DNA of 64,000 nucleotides from NCBI RefSeq assembly GCF_018595675.2, contig NZ_CP092333.1, positions 272,001-336,000 of the forward strand. The letters run 5' to 3'. The position numbers and the translations under genes were made by a program. The DNA comes from Flavihumibacter fluvii (GTDB lineage Bacteria; Bacteroidota; Bacteroidia; Chitinophagales; Chitinophagaceae). Shown here in pieces: positions 47,582-63,993 of this stretch (positions are counted from its first letter, which is position 1; each line of letters starts with the position of its first letter). The notes under the pieces were generated by a model. It was not told where the DNA came from, did not search any database, and saw nothing but the letters and a program-made list of their open reading frames with translations.

Positions 47582-48829
47582 TCAGGATAACATTTTTATT
47601 GTCTTATGTAAGCCGGCAATCAATCCGTCAATTTCTTCTATGGTGTTATATACTGCAAAGGAGGCCCTTACTGTTCCGGGGATGCCAAAACGATACATCA
47701 GGGGCTGGGCACAATGATGGCCCGTTCTTACGGCTATGCCGCTATTATCCAATAAAATCCCGATGTCCTGCGGATGCATCTTGCTGATCACAAATGAAAC
47801 CACACTTACTTTATCTTTTGCCGTACCGATGATTTTTAAGCCCGGTACCTGCTGTAATTGATTTGTAGCATAGTGCAGCAGTTCTTCTTCATGCCTTCGA
47901 ATATTGTCTTTTCCGGTTTCATTGATGAAATCCAGGGCGGCCTTGAAGGCGATGGTATCTGCAATATTTGGAGTACCGGCTTCAAACTTATAGGGTAAGT
48001 CATTATAAGTGGTTTTTTCAAAAGTCACTTCTTTGATCATTTCCCCACCGCCATGAAAAACGGGCATGGCTTCCAGTATATTTTTTTTGCCATATAAGAT
48101 ACCAACGCCGGTTGGTCCGTATACTTTATGGGAAGAGAATACGAAAAAATCAACATCCATTTGCCGGACATCAATATACAGGTGTGCAGCGGATTGCGCG
48201 CCATCTATCAATACCATTGCGCCAGATTTGTGCGCGGCATCAATGATTTGTTTCACCGGATTAATCGTCCCCAGCGCATTCGATGCATGCATCACAGCAA
48301 CCAGCTTTGTTTTCGGGCTAAGTAATTTCAGATAATCCTCGAAGATCATTTCCCCGGCATCATTAACCGGGATTACTTTTAAGGTTGCGCTTTTTTCTTC
48401 ACACAGGATTTGCCAGGGAACAATATTGGAATGGTGTTCCATGTGAGAAATGATGATCTCATCTCCTGCCTGGATATTTTTCCGGCCCCAGGTATAAGCC
48501 ACCAGGTTGATACTTTCGGTGGATCCCCTGGTAAAGATAATTTCCTCCCTTGAAGCAGCGTGGATGAATTGCTGGACAGCATCGCGGGTGGCTTCAAAGG
48601 CCTGGGTAGCTTCCTCTGCAAGGGTATGAATTCCCCGGTGGACATTCGCATTGTAATTACCGTAATAATTTACCAGCGCATCAATGACCACCTGCGGTTT
48701 TTGTGTAGTAGCTGCATTGTCCAGATAAACCAATGGCTTACCCTTCACTTTCCGGTTCAGGATTGGAAACTGTTGCCTGATGCTGTACACATCGAGGCCT
48801 TTTTGCAGGGAAGCTTTGGCGGTGATCAT
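47582..48829 (-). CDS. sufS: SufS cysteine desulfurase
   Basis: 415 residues, fold-type I PLP enzyme. LVYLDNAATTQKP, SHMEHHSN (H132), DGAQSAAH, PLP lysine K235 in SSHKVYGPTG, and the persulfide C373 in RTGHHCAQP. It releases sulfur from cysteine for cluster assembly. Its start overlaps the sufD stop by 4 nt. Confidence 0.96.
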   Translation of the reverse strand: MITAKASLQKGLDVYSIRQQFPILNRKVKGKPLVYLDNAATTQKPQVVIDALVNYYGNYNANVHRGIHTLAEEATQAFEATRDAVQQFIHAASREEIIFTRGSTESINLVAYTWGRKNIQAGDEIIISHMEHHSNIVPWQILCEEKSATLKVIPVNDAGEMIFEDYLKLLSPKTKLVAVMHASNALGTINPVKQIIDAAHKSGAMVLIDGAQSAAHLYIDVRQMDVDFFVFSSHKVYGPTGVGILYGKKNILEAMPVFHGGGEMIKEVTFEKTTYNDLPYKFEAGTPNIADTIAFKAALDFINETGKDNIRRHEEELLHYATNQLQQVPGLKIIGTAKDKVSVVSFVISKMHPQDIGILLDNSGIAVRTGHHCAQPLMYRFGIPGTVRASFAVYNTIEEIDGLIAGLHKTIKMLS

Positions 48830-50136
48830 AGTAAATTCAATTGTAAGCGTTCTGATATAAGGGCATCAACATAAGCGCGAACAGGTTCCGGTTTTACCTG
48901 CGCGATGATGTCTTTGCCAAAGGCCTGCAGCAATAATGACCGGGCAATTTTTTCACTGATACCCCTGGATTGCAGGTAGAACAGGCCTTCGTCATCCAGC
49001 CGGCCTACCGTACAACCGTGCGAGCATTTTACATCATCTGCGAATATTTCCAGTTGTGGTTTTGAATTGATACTGGCTGTGCCGGAGAGGAGGATGTTTT
49101 TGTTGGATTGAAAAGCGTTTGTTTTCTGAGCCTGCGGGCGCACAAATATTTTCCCGTTGAATACACCGGTTGAATGGCCATCCAGGATCCCTTTATAGAA
49201 TTCATTGCTGAAGCAATTGGGTTTTATATGGTCAACGACGGTATGGTTGTCTAAATGTCCATGGCCATTTTGCAAATACAAGCCATATGCGTGGGCTTCC
49301 GCATGTTCTGCATCCATTACTGCATGCAGGTTGTTTCTGACTATGCCCCCGTTCAGGGAAATCGTTACCGTGTGTACATAGCTCTTGCCGACCTGGTGAA
49401 TATGTGTGGTACTCACCTGGCTGTTTGCACTGGAATCGTTCTGGATCTTGTAATACTCCAGCATAGCATCCTTTTCCACGATTATTTCCATAACCTGGTT
49501 GGTGAAGCTTTCGTTTAAGCCAAGGGTAGTATAGTTTTCCACTACCTGCACCTGCGCCTGTTCACTGATGTAAAGGAGGCTGCGTGGCTGGGACAAAATA
49601 TTACCCGGCCGGGTATCTGAAATATTATAGATGTAGACCGGATGGTCGGAGGACTGGCTTTTTTTGACATGGATAAAAACAGCACCCTGTATAAATGCAG
49701 TGTTCAGGGCATGGATACCATCTTTTTGGTAATTGCTGCTGCCACCGAAATATTTTGAAACGATGCTACTGTATGCATGTTGCCCGGCTTCTTCCAATGG
49801 TAAGATTTCTAATGAAGCAGACCGGATAGCGGAATGCGGAGCGGAGAACAAACCATTAATAAAAAACAATTCACTGGCATTTTCATGACCGGGCAAACGA
49901 ATAGCCGCCAGCTCTGCTATGGAAAGCGGTGTTGTGGCCTTGTGTTGCGGGAATTGGTATTCTTTATTAAATAGTCCGCCAATATGTGTGTACTTCCATT
50001 CTTCGTTGCGTGCATTGGGAATGCCCAGCCTGTTAAAAGTATCAAATGCTTTTTCACGGACAAGGCTGAGGGTATTGTCCTTTTGCATTGGCCGCAGCAG
50101 GTCAAACTGTTCCTTAAAATATGCTGAGGTATTCAT
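48826..50136 (-). CDS. sufD: SufD Fe-S cluster assembly scaffold subunit
   Basis: 436 residues: NEEWKYTHIGGLFNKEYQF, ARVV-like TLGLNESFTNQVMEIIVEKD, NTHIHQVGKS and the conserved CSHGCTVGRLDDEGLFYLQS near the C-terminus. Forms the SufBC2D complex with its neighbours. Overlaps sufS by 4 nt; 12 nt from sufC. Confidence 0.95.
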   Translation of the reverse strand: MNTSAYFKEQFDLLRPMQKDNTLSLVREKAFDTFNRLGIPNARNEEWKYTHIGGLFNKEYQFPQHKATTPLSIAELAAIRLPGHENASELFFINGLFSAPHSAIRSASLEILPLEEAGQHAYSSIVSKYFGGSSNYQKDGIHALNTAFIQGAVFIHVKKSQSSDHPVYIYNISDTRPGNILSQPRSLLYISEQAQVQVVENYTTLGLNESFTNQVMEIIVEKDAMLEYYKIQNDSSANSQVSTTHIHQVGKSYVHTVTISLNGGIVRNNLHAVMDAEHAEAHAYGLYLQNGHGHLDNHTVVDHIKPNCFSNEFYKGILDGHSTGVFNGKIFVRPQAQKTNAFQSNKNILLSGTASINSKPQLEIFADDVKCSHGCTVGRLDDEGLFYLQSRGISEKIARSLLLQAFGKDIIAQVKPEPVRAYVDALISERLQLNLL

Positions 50137-50148
50137 TCTTTTCGGGTA

Positions 50149-50916
50149 TTAATTAGTTTCTACGGCAACATGCTGTGCATGTTTGATAAAATCATATCCT
50201 TTCTCTTCAAGTTCCAGTGCCAGTTCTTTAGGGCCGGTCCTGACAATACGGCCATCTAATAATACGTGGACAAAGTCTGGTATGATATAATCAAGCAAAC
50301 GTTGGTAGTGGGTAACCACGAGCACTGCATTGTCTTTGTTCCTTAATTTGTTTACACCATTTGCCACAATGCGGATAGCATCAATATCCAAACCCGAATC
50401 GGTTTCATCCAGGATGGCCAGCTTAGGTTTGAGCATCGCCATCTGGAAAATTTCATTCCGTTTTTTCTCACCGCCGGAAAACCCTTCATTCAGTGAGCGG
50501 CTCAGGAGGGACTGGTCCATTTCCATCATGGCCATTTGTTCCTTTACCAGCTTAAGAAATGTAAGGGCATCGAGGGGTTCTTCGCCGTGGTATTTCCGGA
50601 TCTCATTAACCGCTGTTTTCATAAAGTTGGTGGTGGTGAGTCCCGGTATCTCCACCGGGTATTGAAAAGCAAGAAATAGTCCTTCGGCAGCCCTTGCTTC
50701 AGGCGACAAAGCCAGGAGGTCCTTTCCTGAAAAATCCACGGAGCCGGCAGTAACTTCAAAATTTTGCCGGCCTGCCAAAACAGATGCCAGGGTGCTTTTA
50801 CCGGAACCATTGGGTCCCATGATCGCATGTACCTCGCCTGGCTGGATGTTAAGATTTATTCCTTTTAAAATATCCTTTCCTTCAATGCCTGCATGTAAGT
50901 TGCGGATCGACAGCAT
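50149..50916 (-). CDS. sufC: SufC ABC-type ATPase
   Basis: 255 residues. Walker A IMGPNGSGKST (32-42), signature SGGEKKRNEI and Walker B AILDETDSGLDID. Drives conformational change of SufB/SufD. 36 nt after sufB. Confidence 0.97.
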   Translation of the reverse strand: MLSIRNLHAGIEGKDILKGINLNIQPGEVHAIMGPNGSGKSTLASVLAGRQNFEVTAGSVDFSGKDLLALSPEARAAEGLFLAFQYPVEIPGLTTTNFMKTAVNEIRKYHGEEPLDALTFLKLVKEQMAMMEMDQSLLSRSLNEGFSGGEKKRNEIFQMAMLKPKLAILDETDSGLDIDAIRIVANGVNKLRNKDNAVLVVTHYQRLLDYIIPDFVHVLLDGRIVRTGPKELALELEEKGYDFIKHAQHVAVETN

Positions 50917-50952
50917 GATAAAATTATTTATACTGGTTATTGATACTATTTT

Positions 50953-52404
50953 CTAACCGACACTACCTTCCAAACTTATCGCCAATAATTTTTGTGCTTC
51001 CACAGCAAATTCCATGGGCAGCTGGTTCATCACTTCCCGGGCAAATCCATTAACGATAAGGGCAACAGCTGTTTCTGTTTTAATGCCCCGTTGGTTGCAG
51101 TAGAAGATCTGGTCTTCCCCAATTTTCGAGGTAGTGGCTTCATGTTCCACCTGGGCAGTATTATTCTTCACCTCGATGTAAGGGAAAGTATGCGCGCCAC
51201 ATTTGTCGCCCAGCAGCAGGGAATCACATTGGGAATAGTTACGGGCATTATGGGCATTTTTGCTGATGTGCACCAGTCCCCGGTAGCTGTTATTACTGAC
51301 ACCGGCAGAAATACCTTTTGAAACAATACGGCTTTTGGTATTCTTCCCCAGGTGAATCATTTTAGTGCCGGTATCAGCCTGCTGGTGATGATTGGTAACT
51401 GCTATAGAATAAAATTCTCCAACTGAATTATCACCTTTGAGAATAACGCTGGGGTATTTCCAGGTAATAGCAGAGCCGGTTTCAACCTGTGTCCAGGAAA
51501 TCTTTGCATTGATTCCCTTGCATATGCCACGCTTGGTTACAAAATTGTAAATGCCACCCTTACCCTCTTTATCACCGGGATACCAGTTTTGGACTGTGGA
51601 GTATTTAATTTCTGCATTATCCAGTGCCACCAGTTCCACTACCGCGGCATGCAACTGGTTTTCATCCCGCATAGGTGCGGTACAGCCTTCGAGGTAACTC
51701 ACATAACTAGCTTCTTCGGCCACGATCAGGGTTCTTTCAAACTGGCCGGTATTTTCAGCATTGATGCGGAAGTAGGTGGATAATTCCATCGGGCACCGGA
51801 CGCCTTTAGGGATATAACAAAAAGAGCCATCGCTGAATACGGCGGAGTTGAGCGATGCAAAATAATTATCCGTAATGGGAACCACAGAACCCAGGTATTT
51901 TTTTACAAGGTCGGGGTGTTCCCGGATTGCTTCGCTCATGGAACAGAAGATAATGCCGAGCTCAGCAAGTTGTTCTTTAAAGGAGGTGCCGATAGAGACG
52001 CTATCAATTACGGCATCAACGGCAACGCCGGTAAGCCGTTTTTGTTCATCCAGTGAAATGCCCAGTTTCTCAAAAGTCTCCCTTAGCACAGGGTCAATTT
52101 CATCTAGGCTATTAAGATTGGTTTTTTGTTTCGGCGCAGAATAATAAATGATCTCCTGGAAATTGATGGGATCGTAAGTAATATTGGCCCAGGTGGGTTC
52201 TTCCCCCGCAAGGCTGGACCAGTGGCGGAAAGCTTTTAAACGCCAATCCAGCATCCATTGGGGCTCTTTCTTTTTTGCGGAGATAAAGCGGACAATATCT
52301 TCATTCAATCCTTTTGGGGCTTCATCTGCTTCTATATTGGTAACAAACCCATATTTATAATCACTAAGTACAGTGTTTTCGATGGTTTGAAGGTCGTCAT
52401 TCAT
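50953..52404 (-). CDS. sufB: SufB Fe-S cluster scaffold
   Basis: 483 residues: [55 protein letters not shown] (conserved cysteine), [16 protein letters not shown] and the C-terminal [20 protein letters not shown]. The scaffold on which clusters are built. First gene of the operon, 43 nt downstream of a perfect TACCTTTG -7 element next to an inverted repeat. Confidence 0.97.
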
Positions 52405-52481: not shown

Positions 52482-52566
52482 ATAAAGTTCGGTCATTACG
52501 CTAATGCGGTGGGAATCAGCGCAGTTTGCCACTATTTTCCTTAATATTGACCCATATTCTGCTTGT

Positions 52567-53826
52567 ATGCATATATTGAAAAAGAATCTTCCTGCCATAA
52601 TATTGGCCGGTATGGCATTGGGAACCCCCTGGGCAATCCGGGGTTCATTCGGACATGAACAGGGTGCCGCCTGGGCGGGAGGTATTGGTGCATTGGGCGT
52701 ACTCCTGTTGGCAAAACGGGGGGATTGGTACAACCGGTTTTTAACAGCCACCATGGCCTCAGCGGCAGGCTGGGGAATAGGAGGTATCATCAGCTATGGT
52801 ATGGTGGTGGGCTATGGCCGGGGCATTGATTTTGGGAATGTGTATTACGGGTTGTCCATGTTATTGGTGATCGGCGGGCTTTTTGGCTGGATCGGTGGTG
52901 GGCTATTCGGACTGGCATTGTCCGACCGGCCTGGCAACAAAGTACAATGGCCTGCTTTGATCGTGGAGATGACCTGCGGTGGCTTGATTTTTTACTTTTT
53001 CATCATCCGTGAATTCGAATGGCTGATGACACCGCCAAGGGGGGAGGAGTGGGCCGCTTGCCTGGGTATGTCTTTCGCGCTAACCTGGTACCTCTTTCGA
53101 AACAAACACCATGCAGCCATTCGCGTGGCGGTCTTTTCTGCCCTTGGTGCCGGATTTGGTTTTGCATTCGGCAATTTCCTGCAGGTGATGGGTAACTCAG
53201 CAGGACTACATTTTATCAATCTCTGGAATGTGATGGAATATTCTATCGGTTTTTTTGGCGGCTGCGGCATGGCCTATGGCACTTTCTCCGCAGCGTGGGA
53301 ACAACCAGCAACAGGTATAACAAAACAGCAGGGATCCTTGCCCTTTGTTTTCCTGACCCTCATCATACCATTTATTGTGTGGGACCAGGCTTTCAATGTA
53401 CCACCAGATGATACAGGTACCGTAGTAGCCGGGTATATTAAATGGGGAACGCTTGGATTGGTGTTGTTGTTTTCCGGGTTTTATACCTGGAAATACTTTG
53501 AAGAAAAAAAATCATTGCAGGACTATGGCTTCAATGATGTGTTTAGGTTCTTCATGGCCAGCCTGGTGACCTATACCATCTTTCACCTGTTGAATTCGGA
53601 TGTATTGGCGAATGGGTTCAGCCTGGAACAAGGGTTATACCTGCTTAACCTGGCGATATTGTTGTTTCTCCTGCCGAAGGTACAAGGGGCATTTTTTGCC
53701 AATGGGCTTAATCCCGGCAAGTGGGTGGGATTGTTGTTGCTCCTGCTAATTTTGCTGGCGGTTTTGGCATTCATCGCGATTCATTCACACGGCAGTGTAC
53801 CGAATATGAAAATTCGCTTCCCCTGA
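52567..53826 (+). CDS. Multi-pass membrane protein of unknown function
   Basis: 419 residues from the ATG at 52567 (MHILKKNLPAIILAGMALGT); upstream codons from 52504 are not membrane-like. About eleven to twelve hydrophobic segments, with glycine-rich blocks such as TPWAIRGSFGHEQGAAWAGG, AGWGIGGIISYGMVVGYGRG and GGLFGWIGGGLFGLAL. I do not recognise a family. The conserved-looking RGSFGHEQGA and histidine/acidic residues in membrane regions hint at a transporter or enzyme. Its 3' end overlaps the convergent HTH-like gene by 42 nt. Divergent from the suf operon. Confidence 0.75.
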   Translation: MHILKKNLPAIILAGMALGTPWAIRGSFGHEQGAAWAGGIGALGVLLLAKRGDWYNRFLTATMASAAGWGIGGIISYGMVVGYGRGIDFGNVYYGLSMLLVIGGLFGWIGGGLFGLALSDRPGNKVQWPALIVEMTCGGLIFYFFIIREFEWLMTPPRGEEWAACLGMSFALTWYLFRNKHHAAIRVAVFSALGAGFGFAFGNFLQVMGNSAGLHFINLWNVMEYSIGFFGGCGMAYGTFSAAWEQPATGITKQQGSLPFVFLTLIIPFIVWDQAFNVPPDDTGTVVAGYIKWGTLGLVLLFSGFYTWKYFEEKKSLQDYGFNDVFRFFMASLVTYTIFHLLNSDVLANGFSLEQGLYLLNLAILLFLLPKVQGAFFANGLNPGKWVGLLLLLLILLAVLAFIAIHSHGSVPNMKIRFP

Positions 53827-54813
53827 TTTGAATTCCAGCGTGTTTTTATCAATACCTGAAAATAACTCATCTTCCCCGTCAACATTGGGATCATACCAGT
53901 CCGCTTTTTCTTCTGCCCATTCAATTTTTTCAACCATTTCCGGCGTCATTTCATCGATCGCCATTGCCTGGGTTTTCCAATGGGTAATATATGCTTTCAG
54001 GGTTTGCGCTTTTTGCCAGCGTTCGGCAAGTTGCAGTAGTTGCTTAAAATGTTCCAGTTCTTTTTCAGCCAGGCTTCTTTTCAGCCGGGTATTCATTTCA
54101 ATTTTCCTTGCAGTAACTTTTTCAGTCTCCCTGCCCAAGGCCTTTTCATTTTGTGCTTTTGCTTTGTTTTCAAGTTCCTCAATGATAGCAATGAATTGTG
54201 CTTCAAGTGTAGCGTTGCCATCGCACCATTCCTTGCCTCCAAAGCCGTCTATTTTAAATGCCAGCAGTCCGGTTGGGACCAGCGGCGTATTGATCAATTT
54301 CGTCCTGGGTCCGGTTGATTTGGTTAATTCCCGTAAATAAATTTTGATCGGCTGACCATACATCACAACATAGGTATGGCCATTTTCGTGAATAATGTCG
54401 TGATTCCTTGTTTTCATCGTTTCGATGAAGTAATTCATCCAGCGTATGGCCCTGTCCATCATGGCTTCGGAGACGCGTATGTCCAATTCATTTTGTGCGC
54501 TTGAAAAAAGCCCGTTATACTTGTTGACGGAAGTTCTGGCTGCAGTCGTCCTTATTTTCTTTATGCTGGACAGGTCAACAAAAGGCATTGCCGAAGGATC
54601 ATTGGTCAATGTGCAGCGGTTAATTTTTTTTCCTAACCTGACATTCTCCCAATAGCCCGCTTTCGGGGTGGGGATGTTCATGGTTTTGCACGCTTTTCTT
54701 ATTAAGTATTCACTCAGTTCATTTTTCCTGGTGATTACTGCAATTGGTTCGCTCCAAACCAATTCGTACAATTCTTCCCGCGTGATTCTGTCTTTACTGC
54801 TAAGGTTAATCAT
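53785..54813 (-). CDS. HTH-like hypothetical protein with an REELYELVWSEP start
   Basis: 342 residues. The head RITREELYELVWSEPIAVIT ... YLIRKACKTMNIPTPKAGYW resembles an HTH-containing group of uncharacterised proteins with the pattern REELYELVW-SEPM...KHNIP.P..GYWA. A charged middle (about 215-290) forms a long coiled coil (EELENKAKAQNEKALGRETE ... AEKELEHFKQLLQLAERW). The terminal part is acidic. Function unknown; it could be a DNA-binding regulator or accessory factor. The last 42 nt overlap the membrane-protein gene. Confidence 0.7.
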   Translation of the reverse strand: MINLSSKDRITREELYELVWSEPIAVITRKNELSEYLIRKACKTMNIPTPKAGYWENVRLGKKINRCTLTNDPSAMPFVDLSSIKKIRTTAARTSVNKYNGLFSSAQNELDIRVSEAMMDRAIRWMNYFIETMKTRNHDIIHENGHTYVVMYGQPIKIYLRELTKSTGPRTKLINTPLVPTGLLAFKIDGFGGKEWCDGNATLEAQFIAIIEELENKAKAQNEKALGRETEKVTARKIEMNTRLKRSLAEKELEHFKQLLQLAERWQKAQTLKAYITHWKTQAMAIDEMTPEMVEKIEWAEEKADWYDPNVDGEDELFSGIDKNTLEFKSGEANFHIRYTAV

Positions 54814-55188
54814 TGTTCTTCCGTAATTGAATGCCTGGTGTATTGTAAATGCCGGTGTTCATAGAAATTGGCAGTAAAACTTTTTTAGTAAGGCAAGCAT
54901 CAATATGGCCGATGAATCATTTGAAATTAGCTGAATACATTCAGCCCCCAAATAATTACCTGTTAAAATTAGTATATATAATTTCATCCCGAATAGTTGG
55001 TAATATTAAGGTGGTAATTGGTAAAATACATTTGCTTTTTTACATGGAATGTGTATGTATTACATAGTTGTGATGGCTGTAAACCAGCGGCTGTAGTGTG
55101 TTTCAGCAATCGATTGCGTAAGCGGTGAATGGAGATTGATTATTGGAAGCACTATCGTTATCACTATTATTTACTTATATTAACAGGG
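54814..55188 (+). other. Intergenic region with a promoter and no convincing gene
   Basis: These 375 nt lie between the starts of the HTH-like gene (minus) and the acyltransferase (plus). They are AT-rich. A 72-codon frame (54849-55067) has no family resemblance or recognised start. A perfect TACATTTG element is at 55027-55034. Nothing else was seen: no tRNA cloverleaf, no hairpin with T tract. Confidence 0.45.
55027..55034 (+). promoter_or_regulatory. Bacteroidota -7 promoter element upstream of the acyltransferase operon
   Basis: TACATTTG, perfect TAnnTTTG match, about 155 nt upstream of the acyltransferase ATG at 55189. It would give a leader of about 148 nt, long for this genome, so regulation in the leader is possible. 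Confidence 0.35.
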
Positions 55189-56319
55189 ATGATTAACCAG
55201 GAAAAAACTACATTACCTGCTGCACCAAAACGACTTGTTTCCATCGATGCACTTCGTGGTTTCGATATGCTGATGATCTGCGGACTTGGCGCATTTATAG
55301 AATCCCTGGAAGGGAAAACTTCCCTGGCCTGGGTAGATGCGATCGCTGCACAGTTCCACCATACTGACTGGAATGGATTTACTTTCTATGATTTTATTTT
55401 CCCGCTATTCCTGTTTATTGCGGGTGTGTCCATTCCGTTTTCAATGCAGGCCGGGCTTGCAAAAGGGATTCCCAAATCAAATTTGTATAAGAAGGCATTG
55501 AAACGAATGCTGATCCTGGTAGCATTGGGGATACTGGAAAAGAATACGCCCTTTCCTTTTTTTGATTGGACACATGTACGGCTGGGCGGCGTGTTGCAAC
55601 GTATTGCCATTGCCGGATTTGTGACCACCCTATTGTACCTGAATTTTGCGACGAAGGCGCGAATGTTATGGGCGGCGGGCATCTTATTGTTTTATTATGC
55701 CGCGATGTTTTTGATACCTGTGCCTGGATTTGGTGCCGGGGACCTTTCATTTGAAGGCAACCTGCATGGTTATATCGATCGCAGCATTTTGCCTGGCCGG
55801 CTATTGCAGGGTACGTTCGATGAGAATGGATTGTTCACCCAATTGCCTGCATTGTGCCTGACGATCATGGGTAGTATTGCCGGCGACTTTTTAAGGAATG
55901 CTGCTATTACACCATATGGCAAACTAAAAAAGATACTCCTGTATGGCCTGGTATGTATTGGCATTGGCCTGGTCTGGAACCTGCATTTTCCAATTAACAA
56001 AAGACTCTGGAGCAGTTCATTCATCATGCTGACGGGCGGAATGTCTTTCCTTTTCCTGGCCTTTTTTTATTGGGTGATCGATGTTTTGCAACTTAAGAAG
56101 TGGGCTTTCTTTTTTGTAGTGATCGGTATGAACAGCATCACTATATACCTGGCCTATCATTTTATTGATTTCGGATTTACATCAAAGTTGTTGTTTGAGG
56201 GACTGTATGTAAATAGTCAGGAAGCCTGGCATTCCGTGTTTCAAAGCCTGGGGGCATTAGTGTTGGTTTGGGTGTTCCTGTATATTTTGTACAGGAAGAA
56301 GATATTTGTCAAGATCTGA
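55189..56319 (+). CDS. HGSNAT/DUF5009-type membrane acyltransferase
   Basis: 376 residues from the ATG at 55189, preceded by an AGGG; the 55129 start adds 20 residues ahead of the family start KRLVSIDALRGFDMLMI. About ten membrane helices. HTDWNGFTFYDFIFPLFLFI carries the family histidine and acidic residues, and GGVLQRIAIAGFVTTLLYLN is the second conserved block. Human heparan-alpha-glucosaminide N-acetyltransferase moves acetyl groups across a membrane onto glucosamine. Here it may acetylate an amino sugar. The 2-hydroxyacid dehydrogenase gene follows after 43 nt. Confidence 0.87.
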   Translation: MINQEKTTLPAAPKRLVSIDALRGFDMLMICGLGAFIESLEGKTSLAWVDAIAAQFHHTDWNGFTFYDFIFPLFLFIAGVSIPFSMQAGLAKGIPKSNLYKKALKRMLILVALGILEKNTPFPFFDWTHVRLGGVLQRIAIAGFVTTLLYLNFATKARMLWAAGILLFYYAAMFLIPVPGFGAGDLSFEGNLHGYIDRSILPGRLLQGTFDENGLFTQLPALCLTIMGSIAGDFLRNAAITPYGKLKKILLYGLVCIGIGLVWNLHFPINKRLWSSSFIMLTGGMSFLFLAFFYWVIDVLQLKKWAFFFVVIGMNSITIYLAYHFIDFGFTSKLLFEGLYVNSQEAWHSVFQSLGALVLVWVFLYILYRKKIFVKI

Positions 56320-56362
56320 CCAGAAATAAAATTGATCACAATACTGAATAGCAGTAAGCCAG

Positions 56363-57316
56363 ATGAAAATAGTATTCCTTGATGCCCATACGATACATGC
56401 AGTTAATGATCTGTCCTTTGATCAACTGGAAGCACTTGGCAGTTTGCAATTGTATCCCTTTACAACAGTGGAGGAAGAGCCTGCACGGGTTGCCGATGCA
56501 GAAATCCTGATAGTGAATAAGCACAAGGTTACGGTAAGCCTGCTCAGTTATGCGCCTGCATTGAAATATATCGTTGTAGCAGCAACCGGGTATAACAATA
56601 TTGACCTGGTGGCCACTGCTGCCCGTGGCATCCCGGTGAGTAATGTGCGGGCGTATTCAACAGAAGGTGTTGCCCAATATGTGGTAGCTGCCATGCTGGC
56701 CCATTACCATAAACTGGCATATTATTTCCAGGAAACAGCCAAAGGGAGATGGCAGCAACAACCGGATTTTTGTTTTTATGACCATTCGATACAAAACCTC
56801 TCAGCAAAGACGCTGGGCATCATTGGTTTCGGAACTATTGGCAAGAAAGTGGCCAGTCTTGCACATGCTTTTGGCATGCGCATCCTGGCATACACTGCCT
56901 ATCCAATTCCAGCTGAGTATAATTATGTACATGCAGTAACGCTGGAAGACGTTTTCCGCCAGGCAGATGTCTTAACCTTGCATGCGCCACTCAATGACCA
57001 GACCAAAGACATCATCAATACTTTGCATCTTGAATGGATGAAGCCAGACGCTCTTTTGATCAATACTGGCAGGGGTGGACTAGTGCATGAGCCTTCGTTG
57101 GTAGCACACTTGCCAGCCCATCCTGATTTTACGGCCATACTGGATGTGTTGTCTGCCGAACCACCGGCTGATGACCGGTTGACCAGGTTGGTCAATTGCC
57201 ATGTAACGCCGCACCTGGCCTGGGCATCCCAGCAGTCGCGTATGCAATTGCTGGCCGGTATAACGGAATTGATCAGGTGTTTTCAGCTTGGTGACGTGAA
57301 AAACAGGATAGCATGA
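56363..57316 (+). CDS. D-isomer-specific 2-hydroxyacid dehydrogenase
   Basis: 317 residues. N-terminal catalytic part, then NAD-binding LGIIGFGTIGKKVASLAHAF, arginine in LLINTGRGGLVHEPSL, glutamate in LDVLSAEPPADD and histidine in TPHLAWASQQSR: the standard R-E-H set. Substrate may be glycerate, lactate or a sugar acid. ATG is 43 nt after the acyltransferase and its stop overlaps the GH101-like ATG by 4 nt, so these three genes form one transcript. Confidence 0.92.
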   Translation: MKIVFLDAHTIHAVNDLSFDQLEALGSLQLYPFTTVEEEPARVADAEILIVNKHKVTVSLLSYAPALKYIVVAATGYNNIDLVATAARGIPVSNVRAYSTEGVAQYVVAAMLAHYHKLAYYFQETAKGRWQQQPDFCFYDHSIQNLSAKTLGIIGFGTIGKKVASLAHAFGMRILAYTAYPIPAEYNYVHAVTLEDVFRQADVLTLHAPLNDQTKDIINTLHLEWMKPDALLINTGRGGLVHEPSLVAHLPAHPDFTAILDVLSAEPPADDRLTRLVNCHVTPHLAWASQQSRMQLLAGITELIRCFQLGDVKNRIA

Positions 57317-60099
57317 AACGTGTATTATTATTGACTGTACTTATAGGTTCGCATTTTTTCATTTTCGCGCAGCATACACCGCAATGGAGGCAGCCATACC
57401 ACCAATCCCTGGTGATGAAATTGTTTTTATCTATTCCTGATGGAAAGGGCGGATCCATTGTGGCCCATGATTTTTCAAGTGCGCTGGCCATTGTTAAAAC
57501 AGTTGACCAGTTGACCCTTGGTGTGCCGAAGATCATTTACCTGGTGGGCTGGCAGTATAATGGACATGATGACAAGTACCCTGCATTTTTTGCCGTCAAT
57601 GCTGCTTTGAAAAGAAAGGAAGACGCCACTGCCAGGGAGAGCCTGCTTTGGTTGATGGAGGCCGCGAAAGAATTCCATACAACAATCAGCCTGCATATCA
57701 ATATGACCGATGCGTATGAAGATAGTCCGTTATGGTCAGAGTATGTTGATAAGGACATGCTTTCAAAGCAAGCAGATGGCAGTTTACTGGTCATTGGGAA
57801 TTACAACAATAAAAAAGCCTATCAAATTAATTACAGGCAGGAATGGAAAAATGGTTATGCGCAAAAAAGGATCGACCAGTTGCTGGAGCTGGTGCCTGCC
57901 TTGAAAGATGCGGGAACAATTCATCTGGATGCCTGGATCGCGCGGGATAGCAAGGGGCATGCAGAAACGATGGTTACGGAAGCTGCCTATCAACAAAAAG
58001 TGGCCGGCTATTGGCGCGATAAAGGAATCGATGTGACCACTGAATGGGTGATGGATTATATGACCGGCATCGTTCCCTATTACTGGCATTTTAACGGCCA
58101 ATCACAGGCTGCTTACCTGGAACAACCCGCTTCACTATGTACAGGCAGTAAAATGAATCCGGACCTGAAGCAAAGTGATTTTGGATTGGAGTTCCTGTTT
58201 GGTACGAGCATGTACGGTGAAAATCATTTTCCGGACATCCGGAAAAAAGAAGACCAGTCCGGCTGGACAACAGCCTTCACGAAGGAATTTTTCCTGAATT
58301 ATTTGCAATATCATTTTTTAAACAGGTTGGAGCGTTTACGGGTGGAAGGAGTAGGACAAAACAGGAAAGCATTTTTTGCTGGCAAAGTTATTAGTTCACT
58401 TGCTGATAGTACTGTGGAACAGGACAATAGGGTATTACGCCGGGGTAATACCGTTTGCTTCCCGGTAGGATGGCGCGAAGACAAAAGCCTGGCTGCCTTT
58501 AGTACAAAACAGCAAAGCCTGCAGTATAGTATTCCGGGTAATTGGAATGGTGTGAAGCGTGCCACTGTATTCAATGTTACAAAGGAAGGATTGGTAAAAA
58601 AGGGAACAGTGACCATATCAGCCGGGAAAATAGATATAGCCCTTGAAGCGGGCCAACCCATACTAATGGTCCCAGATCTTCCTATGGCCGTCATTGGCGA
58701 TACAACAAGGTTACAGTATCCAACTGTTCAGAAGAATGCCGCACACCCGGCCTACCACCAGGCATTGGTGATGAAATTATTTATGAGCCAGGCTTTATTT
58801 GATGGGAAATTTAAGCGGCGGGACAATGGCCAGACGCAGGTATATCTTACTGCCGGGCAGGCGCTTGATGTGATCCGGCGGATGGACCAGTTGACACTGG
58901 GCATTCCAAAAATAGTTTACCTGGTCGGTTGGCAGTATAACGGCCACGATTCAGGATATCCAGCCTGGTTCCAGGGTAATGAAGCCCTCAAAAGGAAAGA
59001 AGATAAAGATGCCCTTGAAAGTTTGCGCTGGCTGATGCGCGAAGCAAAACAATACCATACTAGGGTTAGCCTGCATATCAATATGTTTGATGCGTATGAA
59101 GACAGCCCGTTGTGGGAAACGTATATTAAGGAGAATATTATTGCACGGAAAAAAGACGGCTCCCTGCTGGGCGGCGAGTGGGGCTATCCGATCAGTTATG
59201 CGCAGGAATGGGCAACCGGTTATGCGCAGAAACGGATCGATTCCCTGTGTAAACTACTACCAATCCAGGAAGCCGGTACCATACATATAGACGCCTTTCA
59301 TACCTGGCCACCAATACCAGTTCAACGGGCAGATGGAACCTGGGGTGTTGACCTGGAGAAAAAACCAACAAGTACATATTTGCCTTTTTCAGTTGCCGAT
59401 GAAACTGCAGCCCAAAAAAAAATCTATGCATATTGGGAAGAGAAAGGCATCGACGTAACCAGTGAAGGTGTTGATTTCCTGCGCGAGGAAAGTTTTGTGC
59501 AGTACCAATCGATGGCCTGGTGGTTCACCGGACTGGACAAATACCTGCAATGGCCGGCATCGGTATATACTGGCGGAAGAGACCGGAGTGAATGGGGGCG
59601 GTTGTTTGGAACGAGTATGCATGGCGAGGAGATTATCAGGCAGGATCCGCAGCAACTCACCGGATTCAAAACTGAGTTTTGTTTAAATACATTGGTCATG
59701 TATTATCTCAACCGGTTGGAGCGAATGTATATCGTTCAACAACCGGGTAATAAGGAAGTGCATTTTACCGGTAATGTATCCACGCAATTGAAGGGTGGCC
59801 GGTTCAGGTTGAAGGAAGGCAACAATGTGATGGTCGACAACCAGGACCTTTGCATGCCGGCACCGTGGATCGGCCCGGATGCGATGGTCGCTTATAGTAA
59901 GAATGGGTATACCAGCCGGGTATGGACGCTTCCTAAAGCCATGCAATCATATAAGACCGTTCACCTGTTCAGGGTAACGCAAGCGGGACAAGAAAAAATC
60001 GGTGAACAGAAAATCCGGTCCGGGAAAATATCTTTGTCGATGGCTAAGGATGAGATGGTCTTACTTCAATTTCATTCCCACCGGATCCCAGTGCATTAA
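57313..60099 (+). CDS. GH101-like (endo-alpha-N-acetylgalactosaminidase family) enzyme, two tandem copies in one chain
   Basis: 928 residues with a signal peptide (MKRVLLLTVLIGSHFFIFAQ). Residues about 29-455 and 480-920 are two versions of the same module: YHQSLVMKLFLS/YHQALVMKLFMS, LVGWQYNGHD (77-86 and 537-546), SLHINMTDAYEDSPLW/SLHINMFDAYEDSPLW (126-141 and 586-601), GTIHLDAW/GTIHIDAF (D206, D660), GIDVTTE/GIDVTSE (E244, E718) and an NRLER near the end of each barrel. Each half ends in a beta-rich tail. The D and E fit the nucleophile and acid/base of GH101, a family call by resemblance. Both halves keep these residues, so both may be active. Third gene of the acyltransferase operon; its end overlaps the convergent Gfo/Idh gene by 39 nt. 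Confidence 0.85.
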   Translation: MKRVLLLTVLIGSHFFIFAQHTPQWRQPYHQSLVMKLFLSIPDGKGGSIVAHDFSSALAIVKTVDQLTLGVPKIIYLVGWQYNGHDDKYPAFFAVNAALKRKEDATARESLLWLMEAAKEFHTTISLHINMTDAYEDSPLWSEYVDKDMLSKQADGSLLVIGNYNNKKAYQINYRQEWKNGYAQKRIDQLLELVPALKDAGTIHLDAWIARDSKGHAETMVTEAAYQQKVAGYWRDKGIDVTTEWVMDYMTGIVPYYWHFNGQSQAAYLEQPASLCTGSKMNPDLKQSDFGLEFLFGTSMYGENHFPDIRKKEDQSGWTTAFTKEFFLNYLQYHFLNRLERLRVEGVGQNRKAFFAGKVISSLADSTVEQDNRVLRRGNTVCFPVGWREDKSLAAFSTKQQSLQYSIPGNWNGVKRATVFNVTKEGLVKKGTVTISAGKIDIALEAGQPILMVPDLPMAVIGDTTRLQYPTVQKNAAHPAYHQALVMKLFMSQALFDGKFKRRDNGQTQVYLTAGQALDVIRRMDQLTLGIPKIVYLVGWQYNGHDSGYPAWFQGNEALKRKEDKDALESLRWLMREAKQYHTRVSLHINMFDAYEDSPLWETYIKENIIARKKDGSLLGGEWGYPISYAQEWATGYAQKRIDSLCKLLPIQEAGTIHIDAFHTWPPIPVQRADGTWGVDLEKKPTSTYLPFSVADETAAQKKIYAYWEEKGIDVTSEGVDFLREESFVQYQSMAWWFTGLDKYLQWPASVYTGGRDRSEWGRLFGTSMHGEEIIRQDPQQLTGFKTEFCLNTLVMYYLNRLERMYIVQQPGNKEVHFTGNVSTQLKGGRFRLKEGNNVMVDNQDLCMPAPWIGPDAMVAYSKNGYTSRVWTLPKAMQSYKTVHLFRVTQAGQEKIGEQKIRSGKISLSMAKDEMVLLQFHSHRIPVH

Positions 60100-61449
60100 T
60101 TTTTTCTGGAAATAACTTTCATTACAAGCCAGGCAGGGGGCAGCAGCGCGGAAACCAAAGACCGCATCTTCCACTACTTTTCCACCGGTACGAACGGCTT
60201 CAAAGAAATTTTTGAAATGTTCTACATGGTCGTCATGGCCTTCTGGTGCTTTGTAACGGATGGGGTCTTTTTTAGGGGTGATTCTATCTGCAGCAGTATA
60301 TTTCTGGTCATAGGCTTTTACAAGGGCATCCTGCATGGCCTGGGGATAGGTGGACAGTGCATCATAATTGCCGATACCAGGTGCTTTGGGTATCAGGTCG
60401 TGTGTAATGGTAAGGCCGTCGCCAATTTCCATGGCGCCTTCGTCGCCAATGAAACGCAGCCGGTAACCATCACCCACGCCACTTGCAAAGTTCAGCCGAA
60501 GGTTTACCTGGAATGGGCCATGCTCCGGGCTTTCGGGATATTCCATCAAAGCATTCATTACATCGGGTACATTTCGGCCATCTTTCCACATGCTTAACTG
60601 GCCGCTGCAAAATATCCGCGATGGCCCTTTAGAACCGGTGATGAAATGGATTTCCGTGAGCAGGTGCACAAACATATCCCCAGCAGCGCCGGTACCGAAT
60701 TCACGGTAATTGCGCCAGCGGAAAAACTTCAATGCATCGAAAGGTTGTTTGGGCATTCCTGCGATATAGCGGTCCCAGTCCACCGTTTGTGGTGAAGCAT
60801 CATTTGGCAGTGTATATTGCCAGGCACCCATAGCGCTATGGCGGTCGATGCTGGCTTCGATACTATTCAGTTTGCCGATCTCACCGGCATGGTAAAGCTC
60901 TTTTGCTTTCTGGTGCACCAATCCACTGATGCCCTGGCTGCCGATCTGGATCACCCGGTTCGTTTTCATTGCTGTTTCAATTACCGGCAGGCCCTGGGCG
61001 ATTTCTTTCACCATGGGCTTTTCGCAATACACATGTTTGCCGGCATTCATGGCATCGATAGAGATACGCGAATGCCAGAGATCGGCTGTCCCGATGATAA
61101 CGGCATCAATATCTTTTTTGGCAAGGATTTCCCGGTAATCGCGGGTGGTGAAAATACCGGCCCCGTATTTTTCATTGATCCGGGTAAGCCGGCCCTGGTA
61201 TAGATCACAGGCAGCAACAAATTCGATACCCTGGGTTTTCAATGCGGTCTCCAGGTCGTTATTTCCCATGATACCCGCACCTATAAGCGCAACCCGGATG
61301 CGATCATTGGCGCTGATCCGGTCAGGCCTGGTCAGGATTTCTTCCTTAATGCCATTGTTCGCATGCAGGATATTAAAAGACCCGGCCGTTAATGCGAGTC
61401 CGGTCGTGCCTAATTGCTGGATAAATTTCCGCCTTGATGAAGAAGACAT
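60061..61449 (-). CDS. Gfo/Idh/MocA family oxidoreductase with twin-arginine leader
   Basis: 462 residues. Tat leader SSSSRRKFIQQLGTTGLALTAG. NAD-binding start IRVALIGAGIMGNNDLETAL, catalytic-lysine motif HVYCEKPMVKEI, later block FGTGAAGDMFVHLLTEIHFI. Periplasmic sugar oxidoreductase with tightly bound NAD is a common type in Bacteroidota. The substrate is unknown. GH109 glycosidases belong to the same superfamily, but no GH109-specific block could be confirmed. The last 39 nt overlap the GH101-like gene on the other strand. Divergent from the M28 peptidase with 29 nt between starts. Confidence 0.9.
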   Translation of the reverse strand: MSSSSRRKFIQQLGTTGLALTAGSFNILHANNGIKEEILTRPDRISANDRIRVALIGAGIMGNNDLETALKTQGIEFVAACDLYQGRLTRINEKYGAGIFTTRDYREILAKKDIDAVIIGTADLWHSRISIDAMNAGKHVYCEKPMVKEIAQGLPVIETAMKTNRVIQIGSQGISGLVHQKAKELYHAGEIGKLNSIEASIDRHSAMGAWQYTLPNDASPQTVDWDRYIAGMPKQPFDALKFFRWRNYREFGTGAAGDMFVHLLTEIHFITGSKGPSRIFCSGQLSMWKDGRNVPDVMNALMEYPESPEHGPFQVNLRLNFASGVGDGYRLRFIGDEGAMEIGDGLTITHDLIPKAPGIGNYDALSTYPQAMQDALVKAYDQKYTAADRITPKKDPIRYKAPEGHDDHVEHFKNFFEAVRTGGKVVEDAVFGFRAAAPCLACNESYFQKKLMHWDPVGMKLK

Positions 61450-61478
61450 GGGTATATTTAATGATTAGATTCTAAGTT

Positions 61479-62852
61479 ATGCGAAAAATTGTCCTTTTCA
61501 GTTGTATTTATTTCGGGTTTTTGCATGTAGCCAGTGCCCAGGTGAACGACTCCATTATTTTTAAAACCATTGCCGATAATATCCTTCTGCATGGAACGGC
61601 ATATAGTAATCTTGAATATATCTGCAAGAAAATCGGCCCGCGTCTGAGCGGGTCGTCGCAGATGGTAAAAGCAGAACAGGAAACAGCACGTATGCTGCGT
61701 GAGATGGGTGCAGATACTGTTTACCTGCAGGAAATGAAAGTGCCGCATTGGGTGCGGGGTGAAAAGGAGACTGCTTATTTAAACATGCCTGATGGGAAAA
61801 AGCGATCATTGAATATCTGTGCACTGGGCAATAGTGTGGGTACGGGCAAGAAAGGCATCACCGCCATGGTAGTGGAAGTACATTCTTATGAAGAGCTGGA
61901 TGCGCTTGGGGAAAAAGCCATTAAGGGGAAGATTGTTTACCTGGATGTTCGGTTGAATCCAACCTATTTGCTAACCGACCGTGCATATAGCGAGATCTCC
62001 CATTTCAGGTGGAATGGGGCATCCAGGGCTGCAAAGTATGGTGCTGTTGCATTTGTGATCCGATCCCTGGCGAGCAATACAGATGATTTTCCACATACCG
62101 GTGGCATGGGATATAACGATTCTTTTCCGAAGATCCCGGCATTGGCAGTGAGTACAAGGGATGGGGATTTTATTTCTGCAACAATTAAAAATAATAAGGA
62201 TGTAGCGCTATTTGTGCGGAATACGTCCACGAGCTTACCATTGGCAACGGGGCATAATGTGATTGCCGAGATTCGTGGTTCAGGTATGCCCGATGAGATC
62301 ATAACTATTGGTGGCCACCTCGATTCCTGGGACCTGGCCGAAGGTGCTCAGGATGATGGTGCAGGTTGTGTACAGAGTATGGAATTGGTCAGGGTGTTTA
62401 AAAAATCAGGTATCAGGCCGAAGCGGACCATCAGGGTGGTGCTGTTCACGGATGAAGAAAACAGTGGCGCCGGTGGTATAAAATATGCGGAGTTTGCCAA
62501 AGCAGAAAATAAACGGCACCTGTTTGCTATTGAATCAGATGCAGGCGGGTTTGTACCCAGGGGCTTTGATTTTGTAATAACTAAAGAAAGGCTGGAAAAA
62601 CTACGGAGCTGGTTGCTTTTATTTGAGCCCTATGGTATACACCGGATGGGCCAGGGGGAACCAGGTGCAGATGTGGATTACCTGCGCCCGATGGGTTTTA
62701 CCTTGTCACAGTTGGCACCCGATTCACAGCGCTATTTTGATTACCATCATACTGCCCAGGATAGTTTTGCTGCCGTGAGTAAGCGCGAACTCGAATTTGG
62801 TGCTATTGTGATGGCGCAGCTGGTGTATATGATCGACAAATATGGATTATAA
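61479..62852 (+). CDS. M28 family zinc peptidase (carboxypeptidase Q-like)
   Basis: 457 residues with a signal peptide (MRKIVLFSCIYFGFLHVASAQ). PA insert region at about 130-250, then the M28 metal set: H in TIGGHLDSWDLAEG, D in GAQDDGAGC, E-E in FTDEENSGAGG, D in AIESDAGGF and the last H in YFDYHHTAQD. Same architecture as PGCP/carboxypeptidase Q, which cleaves dipeptides. Likely periplasmic or outer-membrane peptide degradation. The 29-nt gap to the divergent Gfo/Idh gene contains TTAGA-T-TCTAA. Confidence 0.93.
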   Translation: MRKIVLFSCIYFGFLHVASAQVNDSIIFKTIADNILLHGTAYSNLEYICKKIGPRLSGSSQMVKAEQETARMLREMGADTVYLQEMKVPHWVRGEKETAYLNMPDGKKRSLNICALGNSVGTGKKGITAMVVEVHSYEELDALGEKAIKGKIVYLDVRLNPTYLLTDRAYSEISHFRWNGASRAAKYGAVAFVIRSLASNTDDFPHTGGMGYNDSFPKIPALAVSTRDGDFISATIKNNKDVALFVRNTSTSLPLATGHNVIAEIRGSGMPDEIITIGGHLDSWDLAEGAQDDGAGCVQSMELVRVFKKSGIRPKRTIRVVLFTDEENSGAGGIKYAEFAKAENKRHLFAIESDAGGFVPRGFDFVITKERLEKLRSWLLLFEPYGIHRMGQGEPGADVDYLRPMGFTLSQLAPDSQRYFDYHHTAQDSFAAVSKRELEFGAIVMAQLVYMIDKYGL

Positions 62853-62919
62853 ACTTTGGTCGTGGAAAGGTAATACTGCATGCTATACGATGTGTTATTG
62901 CAAGGTTTCAATATATATG

Positions 62920-63993
62920 CTAGTGTTTCTCACTTAAGTAGTGTTTTTTCAAAACGTCTTCGCCATATTCATTTCCTTTCTCCCGCCAGATGGCGTGGAT
63001 ATGGTTGGCATTGCCCATAAAGCCCTGGTTATCTAATTCTATTAGAAAAGTGGGGCCGTTCAGCACATAATAATGTGGTTCTTTTTCTTGAACCGGACCG
63101 ATCCAGCCAAAATAGATTTTATCAATACCAGCCTTGATGATCTTGTCATATTCTACCAGGGCCTTGTCATACTCCATATTGAACACAAATTCGCGGATGA
63201 TATAAAGTGCTATTGCTTTTTGTTCTTTGCTCATTTCTGCGCCCTTGATCCCCTGGAAATCGAGCAGCCTTTTCCCGCTTTCAGCACTGGTGAAAATATC
63301 GCCGGGCACTTCCTTGCTGATCGTTGCTTTTTGTTGCAGCGCAGGTGATAGCGATGACATCAGCTTGATGCCCAGGTCTTCTTCCTGGCCCAGCACCCGC
63401 CAACCGGCATATTCTGAATTCGGGTATTCAGCAGGATCCGTTCCAATGAAAAATGGCGTCACTGATAATTTATCGTTTACAAAACTGAAGTTGATGGACA
63501 GGTGATGGCCTTCTATTTTGAAGCCCCAGATTTGACCGGTCGGGTTACCGAAGAAGGCGAGGTAGAAATTGCGGTGGCTCCATTGCAGGTCCTGCAGGAA
63601 CTTATGCATGGTGTCGTCGATGGCCTTTTTATAATAAAGGCTGTCGTAGTAGAGGTTCAATAAATTATCGAGGTGCAGAATGCTGGTGGCTTTCAGGTAG
63701 CCCTGGGAACTCAGTGTAACAGAAAGTATCCGATGAAAAAGTTTGCGCTGGTCTTCGGTCATCTTGCCGATATTGATGCCGGCTCGGGGCCGAAGGCCAA
63801 CCGGAAGGTTATTCCATTTGGTGCGCGCGGAATCTTCAAAGGAAAGCAGGGCGAGTTTCTTCTGGGAAGGGTCAAGCGTATTGACGAATTGTATGGCGGA
63901 TTGTTTGATCTCTTCATTATAGCCCATTTGGGCATTGGACTGTTCAATTGCGAGGCAAAGAATAATGGCAAAAATTGCAGGTATAAATTTCAT
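62920..63993 (-). CDS. DUF3500 family secreted protein
   Basis: 357 residues with a signal peptide (MKFIPAIFAIILCLAIEQSNA). The DUF3500 pattern is clear: WNNLPVGLRPRAGINIGKMT, MHKFLQDLQWSHRNFYLAFF, IWGFKIEGHHLSINFSFVND and WIGPVQEKEPHYYVLNGPTF. Function is unknown; conserved histidines and acidic residues suggest an enzyme. It faces the M28 peptidase. The start at 63993 lies 7 nt from the window edge. Confidence 0.88.
   Translation of the reverse strand: MKFIPAIFAIILCLAIEQSNAQMGYNEEIKQSAIQFVNTLDPSQKKLALLSFEDSARTKWNNLPVGLRPRAGINIGKMTEDQRKLFHRILSVTLSSQGYLKATSILHLDNLLNLYYDSLYYKKAIDDTMHKFLQDLQWSHRNFYLAFFGNPTGQIWGFKIEGHHLSINFSFVNDKLSVTPFFIGTDPAEYPNSEYAGWRVLGQEEDLGIKLMSSLSPALQQKATISKEVPGDIFTSAESGKRLLDFQGIKGAEMSKEQKAIALYIIREFVFNMEYDKALVEYDKIIKAGIDKIYFGWIGPVQEKEPHYYVLNGPTFLIELDNQGFMGNANHIHAIWREKGNEYGEDVLKKHYLSEKH

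Follow-up and report, generated by a model that had tools for sequence, protein, structure and literature searches.

The closest described relatives of the gene considered here are enzymes of glycoside hydrolase family 101 (GH101), such as EngBF (2ZXQ) and SpGH101 (5A55-5A59), in which a catalytic barrel is followed by a beta-sandwich and an Asp nucleophile and a Glu acid/base are accompanied by GHD and H[IV]N motifs. The chains of known GH101 enzymes are very long, exceeding 1350 residues (PMC10949244, accessible part), and the characterised members possess a tryptophan lid (accessible parts of PMC10949244 and PMC8106489). The gene at positions 57313-60099 of the 64,000-nucleotide stretch of the Flavihumibacter fluvii genome analysed here (contig NZ_CP092333.1, positions 272,001 to 336,000; hereafter the window) is predicted to share the fold, catalytic pair and motifs of EngBF and SpGH101. 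Unlike them, its product carries two catalytic modules of about 450 residues in one chain, lacks the tryptophan-lid motif, reads NGHD for EGHD and belongs to a member of the Bacteroidota. The next-best fold match of both halves is the GH129 enzyme NagBb (5WZN, 5WZP-R), whose chains of about 600-630 residues hold a single module and which matches more weakly (best E 3.2e-13 and 2.9e-9). We found no account of two, tandem or duplicated GH101 domains in the open-licence literature, where a search for GH101 with two catalytic domains led to a review on pneumococcal glycosidases.

With moderate confidence, we read the protein as a secreted, two-headed retaining glycosidase that would have arisen when two GH101-like genes, long diverged but lying side by side, became fused, and whose heads would differ and act on a glycan that is probably not core 1.

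Two predicted GH101-type modules from different clades

The original prediction, made from the nucleotide letters, described the 928-residue product as two copies of one module, and comparison of the halves bears this out: modules 1 and 2, each of about 450 residues and in direct succession, share 186 identities over 460 columns (40%; BLASTP E 2e-98), and the four motifs that it quoted are found in both halves. Among four fused proteins, including three relatives described below, identity is 59-69% in module 1, 60-71% in module 2 and 28-40% in the linker; judged from these alignments, both modules are conserved while the linker drifts. Synonymous sites are saturated, with synonymous divergence (dS, NG86 method) undefined or at least 2.2 in all module pairs of the fused proteins.

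A profile search and a structure prediction, both proposed as checks on the double-headed reading, were carried out on each half. Pfam PF12905 (Glyco_hydro_101) matches the halves separately and above its cut-off of 25 bits (55 bits, E 1.1e-14; 45.5 bits, E 8.2e-12), the best stretches being partial (profile positions 33-206 in half 1 and 42-177 in half 2, of 272). A sequence search of the PDB returned EngBF or EngBF-derived constructs as the top eight chains for each half (best E 4.6e-7 for half 1, with 2zxq at 5e-7; 2.4e-5 for half 2, with 2zxq at 2.8e-5). The whole protein misses the cut-off of the NCBIfam endo_SpGH101 model, which is 1962 positions long, at 56.5 bits against 2900. Pfam also contains a GH129 family; no GH129-named Pfam family appears among the matches of either half at E up to 1, and DUF5696 is listed for half 1 at E 0.01, under its own cut-off.

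Models built for each half singly, from 38 aligned sequences for module 1 and 31 for module 2, are confident: the mean predicted local distance difference test (pLDDT) is 88.0 and 94.2, respectively, and the predicted template modelling score (pTM) 0.87 and 0.92. Foldseek searches of the PDB with these predicted models placed GH101 enzymes or EngBF-based constructs at ranks 1-15 for both halves (top match 5a55 for module 1, E 2.7e-22, TMq 0.67; 5a58 for module 2, E 2.4e-19, TMq 0.65), followed by GH129 NagBb and then mostly by other glycosidases, such as GH13 amylases. Both halves are therefore predicted to be complete GH101-type domains, and to that extent, by profile and by model, the proposal of a double-headed glycosidase stands; catalysis itself is still a prediction.

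Relatives of the modules were found at 68 loci (L numbers) in a scan of genome contigs, and 87 modules were aligned (8 short fragments and 9 duplicate loci excluded; two pieces of L078 and the distant L010 included). A maximum-likelihood tree of the 84 of these rows with at least 340 residues places module 1 in a clade of 28 rows (clade A, support 100/100) and module 2 in another of 25 (clade B, 100/98). A second tree, of 91 rows (L010 dropped, 8 rows added) and rooted on two long GH101 proteins, recovers both (100/99 and 100/98); the smallest clade containing A and B comprises 87 rows, 34 belonging to neither, with the caveat, raised as a warning by the tool, that long branches meet at the root. 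Grouping the window's halves as sisters is rejected by the approximately unbiased test (p-AU 2e-57), and a single clade uniting A and B is rejected as well, though less strongly (p-AU 0.016). Because the halves fall in separate clades and their sister grouping is rejected, the sequences indicate that the protein arose by the joining of two old paralogues, most simply neighbouring genes, and not by a recent doubling. A chain of two homologous halves that are alike in length might otherwise have suggested internal duplication of a single GH101-like gene within the genus, a scenario that is almost certainly wrong: it is refuted, under the tree model used, by the rejection just given, by clades that are each common to other Bacteroidota and by the occurrence elsewhere of A and B as neighbouring separate genes. 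Module 1 of the four fused proteins does not form one clade in the free tree, where that of F. petaseus (L016) groups with two Sphingobacteriaceae; holding the four together is not rejected (p-AU 0.75) and gives an even higher likelihood. Both one and two fusion events are possible.

The original prediction had also called for a search for other two-module homologues. A module-profile scan of open reading frames (ORFs) found two complete modules in one frame at three of the 68 loci (L015, L016 and L019, all Flavihumibacter) in addition to the window. The genome draws, which are samples, gave a match in 5 of 15 Flavihumibacter genomes (four with a two-module ORF, the window's own included, and one with a shortened form). 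Any match was seen in 6 of 294 genomes drawn from the family, the two-module ORF only in the window's own; that genome was also the single match among 395 from the phylum. A draw guided by Pfam yielded weak matches in 8 other genomes of 296, one of them over the cut-off. Among the genomes searched, the one-chain A+B fusion is confined to Flavihumibacter.

Elsewhere the same two module types form separate polypeptides. Separate A and B genes occur at six loci, adjacent in L017 (Echinicola), L033 and L049 (Tannerella) and one gene apart in L022, L028 (Niabella) and L030 (Snuella); read from the junction sequences, the A stop and the first in-frame ATG of B are 18 bases apart in L017 and 5 in L049. 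Clade A includes 24 further rows from stand-alone genes, and the window genome itself has a clade-A paralogue at 849856-851169. A different fusion is found in Tannerella L047, where a clade-B module shares a single 1080-residue ORF with a glycosidase-type partner of GH110 type, in place of the clade-A partner seen in the window. At two of the fused loci the A+B ORF is separated from the next, GH110-type ORF by one in-frame stop followed by ATG (L019:10722-10727, TGA-ATG; L015:2814-2819, TAA-ATG). Two short GH101-like genes of 465 and 466 residues, L122 and L138, lie close together on one contig (C90 of genome G771, drawn from the class of G684), so that pairing extends beyond the Bacteroidota clades A and B. 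No description of these clades was found in the accessible parts of the open-licence literature on Bacteroidetes GH101 or on GH101/GH110/GH123 polysaccharide loci.

The shortened form, F. profundi L018 (one assembly), has lost most of module 1 through an in-frame deletion and retains the N-terminal start, the first residues and the end of module 1, the linker and the whole of module 2. Such a gene is what would be expected if module 2 alone works and module 1 is a binding or structural domain heading for loss, and the module 1 model is indeed weaker around residues 281-320 (block pLDDT down to 72). We nevertheless consider this unlikely, given that module 1 keeps its catalytic D and E in all four fused proteins, that its identity among them equals that of module 2 and that its clade is well populated by stand-alone genes.

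Active sites and the tryptophan lid

The DDE triad of GH101 named in the accessible part of PMC11861894 is present in each module (D86/D206/E244 in module 1 and D546/D660/E718 in module 2) and is invariant among modules with a letter at these columns. D206/E244 and D660/E718 had been singled out by the original prediction and lie where it placed them; across the 87-module alignment, every row with a letter at the position in question has D as the nucleophile (86 of 86) and E as the acid/base (85 of 85). Spacing suggests that the first D of the triad is the Asp of GHD. At the EGHD position GHD is kept (residues 84-86 and 544-546) with N replacing E, and the V/IHV/IN motif reads HIN (128-130 and 588-590), preceded by L.

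Clades A and B share 66 alignment columns that are at least 95% uniform and identical between them, and are distinguished by positions at which each clade is at least 86% uniform: D87/S547 after GHD, T132/F592 after HIN, W208/F662, I209/H663 and R211/W665 after the nucleophile, and H259/W737. The extra insertion noticed earlier in the second copy proves to be a loop directly after the nucleophile that is usual in clade B and lacking in clade A; at the lid site of GH101 enzymes, clade B further has a shortened loop. Because the clade-specific differences lie beside the catalytic motifs, the two heads very likely have different pockets, which lends support to the earlier suggestion that the halves might possess different subsites.

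The lid motif of characterised GH101 enzymes ([AG]W.W[LM]; Motif-1, GWxWLDx type) occurs in none of the 87 modules, the lid region reading GNYNNKKAYQ in module 1 and GGEWGYP in module 2. The lid core W.WLD is present in two long GH101 controls, L110 (WSWLD), from a Niabella genome in which clade A and B genes are found as well, and L120 (WNWLD), from a genome sampled in the class of G684, as it is in EngBF (GWNWLDQ). The large flanking domains of GH101 enzymes are likewise absent from these modules of about 450 residues. By sequence, the protein belongs to the broad GH101 profile and lacks the features of the core-1 endo-enzymes; since the tryptophan lid is missing, it is rightly called GH101-like, and the name endo-alpha-N-acetylgalactosaminidase is not to be assumed. 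The control L110 is a long GH101 protein with a tryptophan lid (1145-residue open frame) in a member of the Bacteroidota (Niabella genome G688); the accessible part of PMC11861894 assigns GH101 to Firmicutes and Actinomycetota and there contains no word beginning 'bacteroid'.

These observations bear on whether the protein could be a doubled classical endo-alpha-N-acetylgalactosaminidase, with both heads releasing Gal-beta-1,3-GalNAc (core 1; GalNAc, N-acetylgalactosamine) from O-glycoproteins. Such an enzyme would fit the PF12905 matches, the ranking of SpGH101 and EngBF as best fold matches of both halves, and the retention in each of GHD, HIN and the catalytic Asp and Glu. However, a lid found in L110, L120 and EngBF is missing from every module, the modules come without the other domains of the much longer GH101 enzymes (PMC10949244, accessible part), and the two heads are unlike each other beside their catalytic motifs, all of which makes a doubled core-1 enzyme decidedly unlikely.

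Genomic surroundings

The features of the gene and its immediate neighbours are collected below.

Table 1. Coordinates, within the window, of the two-module gene, its parts and its neighbours.
Feature	Position	Strand	Basis or remark
Two-module GH101-like protein gene	57313..60099	+	928 aa, ATG start, no internal stop
Signal-peptide-like N-terminus, residues 1-20	57313..57372	+	judged by eye from sequence; low pLDDT in model
Module 1, residues 29-455, clade A, GH101-like barrel + C-terminal beta-sandwich	57397..58677	+	Pfam PF12905, tree, model, Foldseek
D206, predicted nucleophile of module 1 (HLDAW)	57928..57930	+	aligned to EngBF YLDVW by phmmer; conserved column
E244, predicted acid/base of module 1 (TTEW)	58042..58044	+	aligned to EngBF TTEW by phmmer; conserved column
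Linker, residues 456-480, fast evolving	58678..58752	+	identity among fused proteins; low pLDDT from residue 458
Module 2, residues 481-920, clade B, GH101-like barrel + beta-sandwich	58753..60072	+	Pfam PF12905, tree, model, Foldseek
D660, predicted nucleophile of module 2 (HIDAF)	59290..59292	+	alignment column of D206
Clade-B loop insertion after nucleophile, about residues 665-686, WPPIPVQRADGTWG region	59305..59370	+	half-vs-half and clade alignments
E718, predicted acid/base of module 2 (TSEG)	59464..59466	+	alignment column of E244
D-2-hydroxyacid dehydrogenase gene	56363..57316	+	stop overlaps fusion-gene start (ATGA)
NagX-like membrane acyltransferase gene, upstream	55129..56319	+	NF046061 298.2 bits, below cut-off 480
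Gfo/Idh/MocA oxidoreductase gene, convergent, Tat-like start (by eye)	60061..61449	-	

Polysaccharide-locus genes accompany many of the relatives. Within the fetched flanks of 42 A/B loci (window excluded, the window genome's paralogue L002 included), SusC was counted at 16, SusD at 17, GH110 at 13, GH123 at 12, GH35 at 9, GH95 at 6 and GH97 at 4, with SusC or SusD at 17, often in company with GH110, GH123 or GH35, and GH110 or GH123 also at 17; short contigs make these counts lower bounds, and they stand without a control of unrelated loci. Family labels come from Pfam scans of one or a few members of each cluster, the others being assigned by BLAST or clustering. The GH110 count is strict in that it excludes a second beta-helix group, whose four scanned proteins lack GLAA-B barrels; on this count there is no GH110 at L016, and none at L049, where the downstream ORF is cut at the contig end. 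Of the fused genes, those of L016 and L019 lie within SusC/SusD polysaccharide loci, that of L016 (F. petaseus) with GH123, and that of L015 has GH110 and GH123 directly downstream. The F. profundi gene, like that of the window, is outside a polysaccharide locus.

Around the window gene, a Pfam scan found no SusC/SusD pair among the seven neighbours from 52504 to 63993. Elsewhere in the genome, a GH110-type gene adjoins a sulfatase gene near 2.98 Mb, close to a GH95 gene; GH123 is represented by a full gene near 3.63 Mb and a short, weak GH123_N match near 1.60 Mb. The D-2-hydroxyacid dehydrogenase and fusion genes are probably co-transcribed, given their stop/start overlap. Genes of the Gfo/Idh/MocA cluster are also found near clade-B genes in L021 and L025, the latter with a gene of the NagX-like cluster as well, and the recurrence of Gfo/Idh/MocA genes near clade-B genes hints at sugar oxidation beside hydrolysis. 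Assignment of the Gfo/Idh/MocA neighbour to GH109 was rejected: in the PDB scan, GH109 chains reached only 7e-7 (6t2b) and 3.1e-6 (2ixa) against 2.7e-27 for a chain named 'Dehydrogenase'. Its nearest NCBIfam model is the BT_2158 glycoside 3-dehydrogenase (137.8 bits against a cut-off of 750), which leaves the neighbour without a firm assignment; PMC11300592 and PMC11992087 offered nothing decisive.

Two further observations concern other genes. A 760-residue protein with no Pfam match and no convincing match in the PDB, where the best E is 0.1 (L083:10705-12984; window genome contig C1, about 851205-853484), has homologues in L002, L020, L026 and L054 and is encoded immediately after GH101-like genes of either clade; a GMC oxidoreductase and a Gluconate_2-dh3 type protein come next in both F. 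profundi and the window genome. On the reverse strand of the window, at 48826-52404, three genes read, from their translations only, like sufD, sufC and sufB (iron-sulfur cluster assembly).

Proposed function and meaning

If the protein is a two-headed retaining enzyme, its family suggests that each head would cleave an alpha-linked, galactose-configured amino sugar of GalNAc type, most likely GalNAc, by double displacement: the Asp would attack the anomeric carbon, and the Glu would protonate the leaving group and later activate water. The heads may take different linkages or neighbouring residues within the same glycan, with the tether holding the two activities together. GH110 activity points to alpha-galactose and GH123 activity to beta-GalNAc. 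The glycan is probably not mucin core 1 and would be the one attacked in related loci together with GH110, GH123 and GH35 enzymes, so that, going by these neighbours, it may also bear alpha-galactose and beta-GalNAc.

Flavihumibacter are environmental bacteria, and this lifestyle would suit a different target, namely an algal, plant or bacterial polysaccharide with modified galactose, attacked by heads that are exo-acting and not GalNAc-specific. The GH129 structures, which include an alpha-N-acetylgalactosaminidase and a 3,6-anhydro-D-galactosidase, lend some weight to such a target: NagBb is the second-best fold, and the 3,6-anhydro-D-galactosidase ZgGH129 is among the module 2 matches. The missing lid and the presence of GH35, GH97 and GH95 in related loci agree with it. 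We regard it as somewhat unlikely, since the GH123 and GH110 neighbours of relatives suggest GalNAc and alpha-galactose over anhydro-galactose, and the halves match the GH101 and, at E up to 1, not a GH129-named profile by sequence.

Several findings weigh against the two-headed enzyme that we favour. The GH101 fold matches share only 12-16% identity with the halves, so its sugar specificity is transferred from distant enzymes; the models, covering each half singly, do not reach the relative placement of the heads; and NGHD stands where known GH101 enzymes have EGHD. F. profundi has kept only module 2, and module 1 is thus dispensable there. Clade A occurs alone at 18 of the 42 loci and clade B alone at 15, against 9 with both in the fetched flanks. 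The window gene, moreover, lies outside any polysaccharide locus, with the genome's GH110 and GH123 genes megabases away, and within reach of the flanks 25 of the 42 loci have neither SusC nor SusD and 25 neither GH110 nor GH123.

Tentatively, and with rather less confidence than an even chance would warrant, we suggest that the lidless short modules (clades A and B with their relatives in Bacteroidota, Bacillota, Verrucomicrobiota and Planctomycetota) may form a glycosidase family of their own, as yet uncharacterised, beside GH101 and GH129, and that the A/B pair may work in two steps on a single glycan not yet described, the two having been joined in Flavihumibacter into one two-headed enzyme.

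There is demand for O-glycan-releasing enzymes as analytical tools (PMC12550630, accessible part). Against the great length of the known GH101 enzymes, the modules described here are compact, at about 450 residues, occur naturally in two pocket types and are already tethered in one genus. Their pairing offers a clean natural case in which neighbouring genes fuse and, in F. profundi, one head is lost again, and it makes testable why two activities stay together. Should the lidless modules turn out to differ in specificity, the GH101 name would be wrong for proteins that at present exceed the cut-off of that profile.

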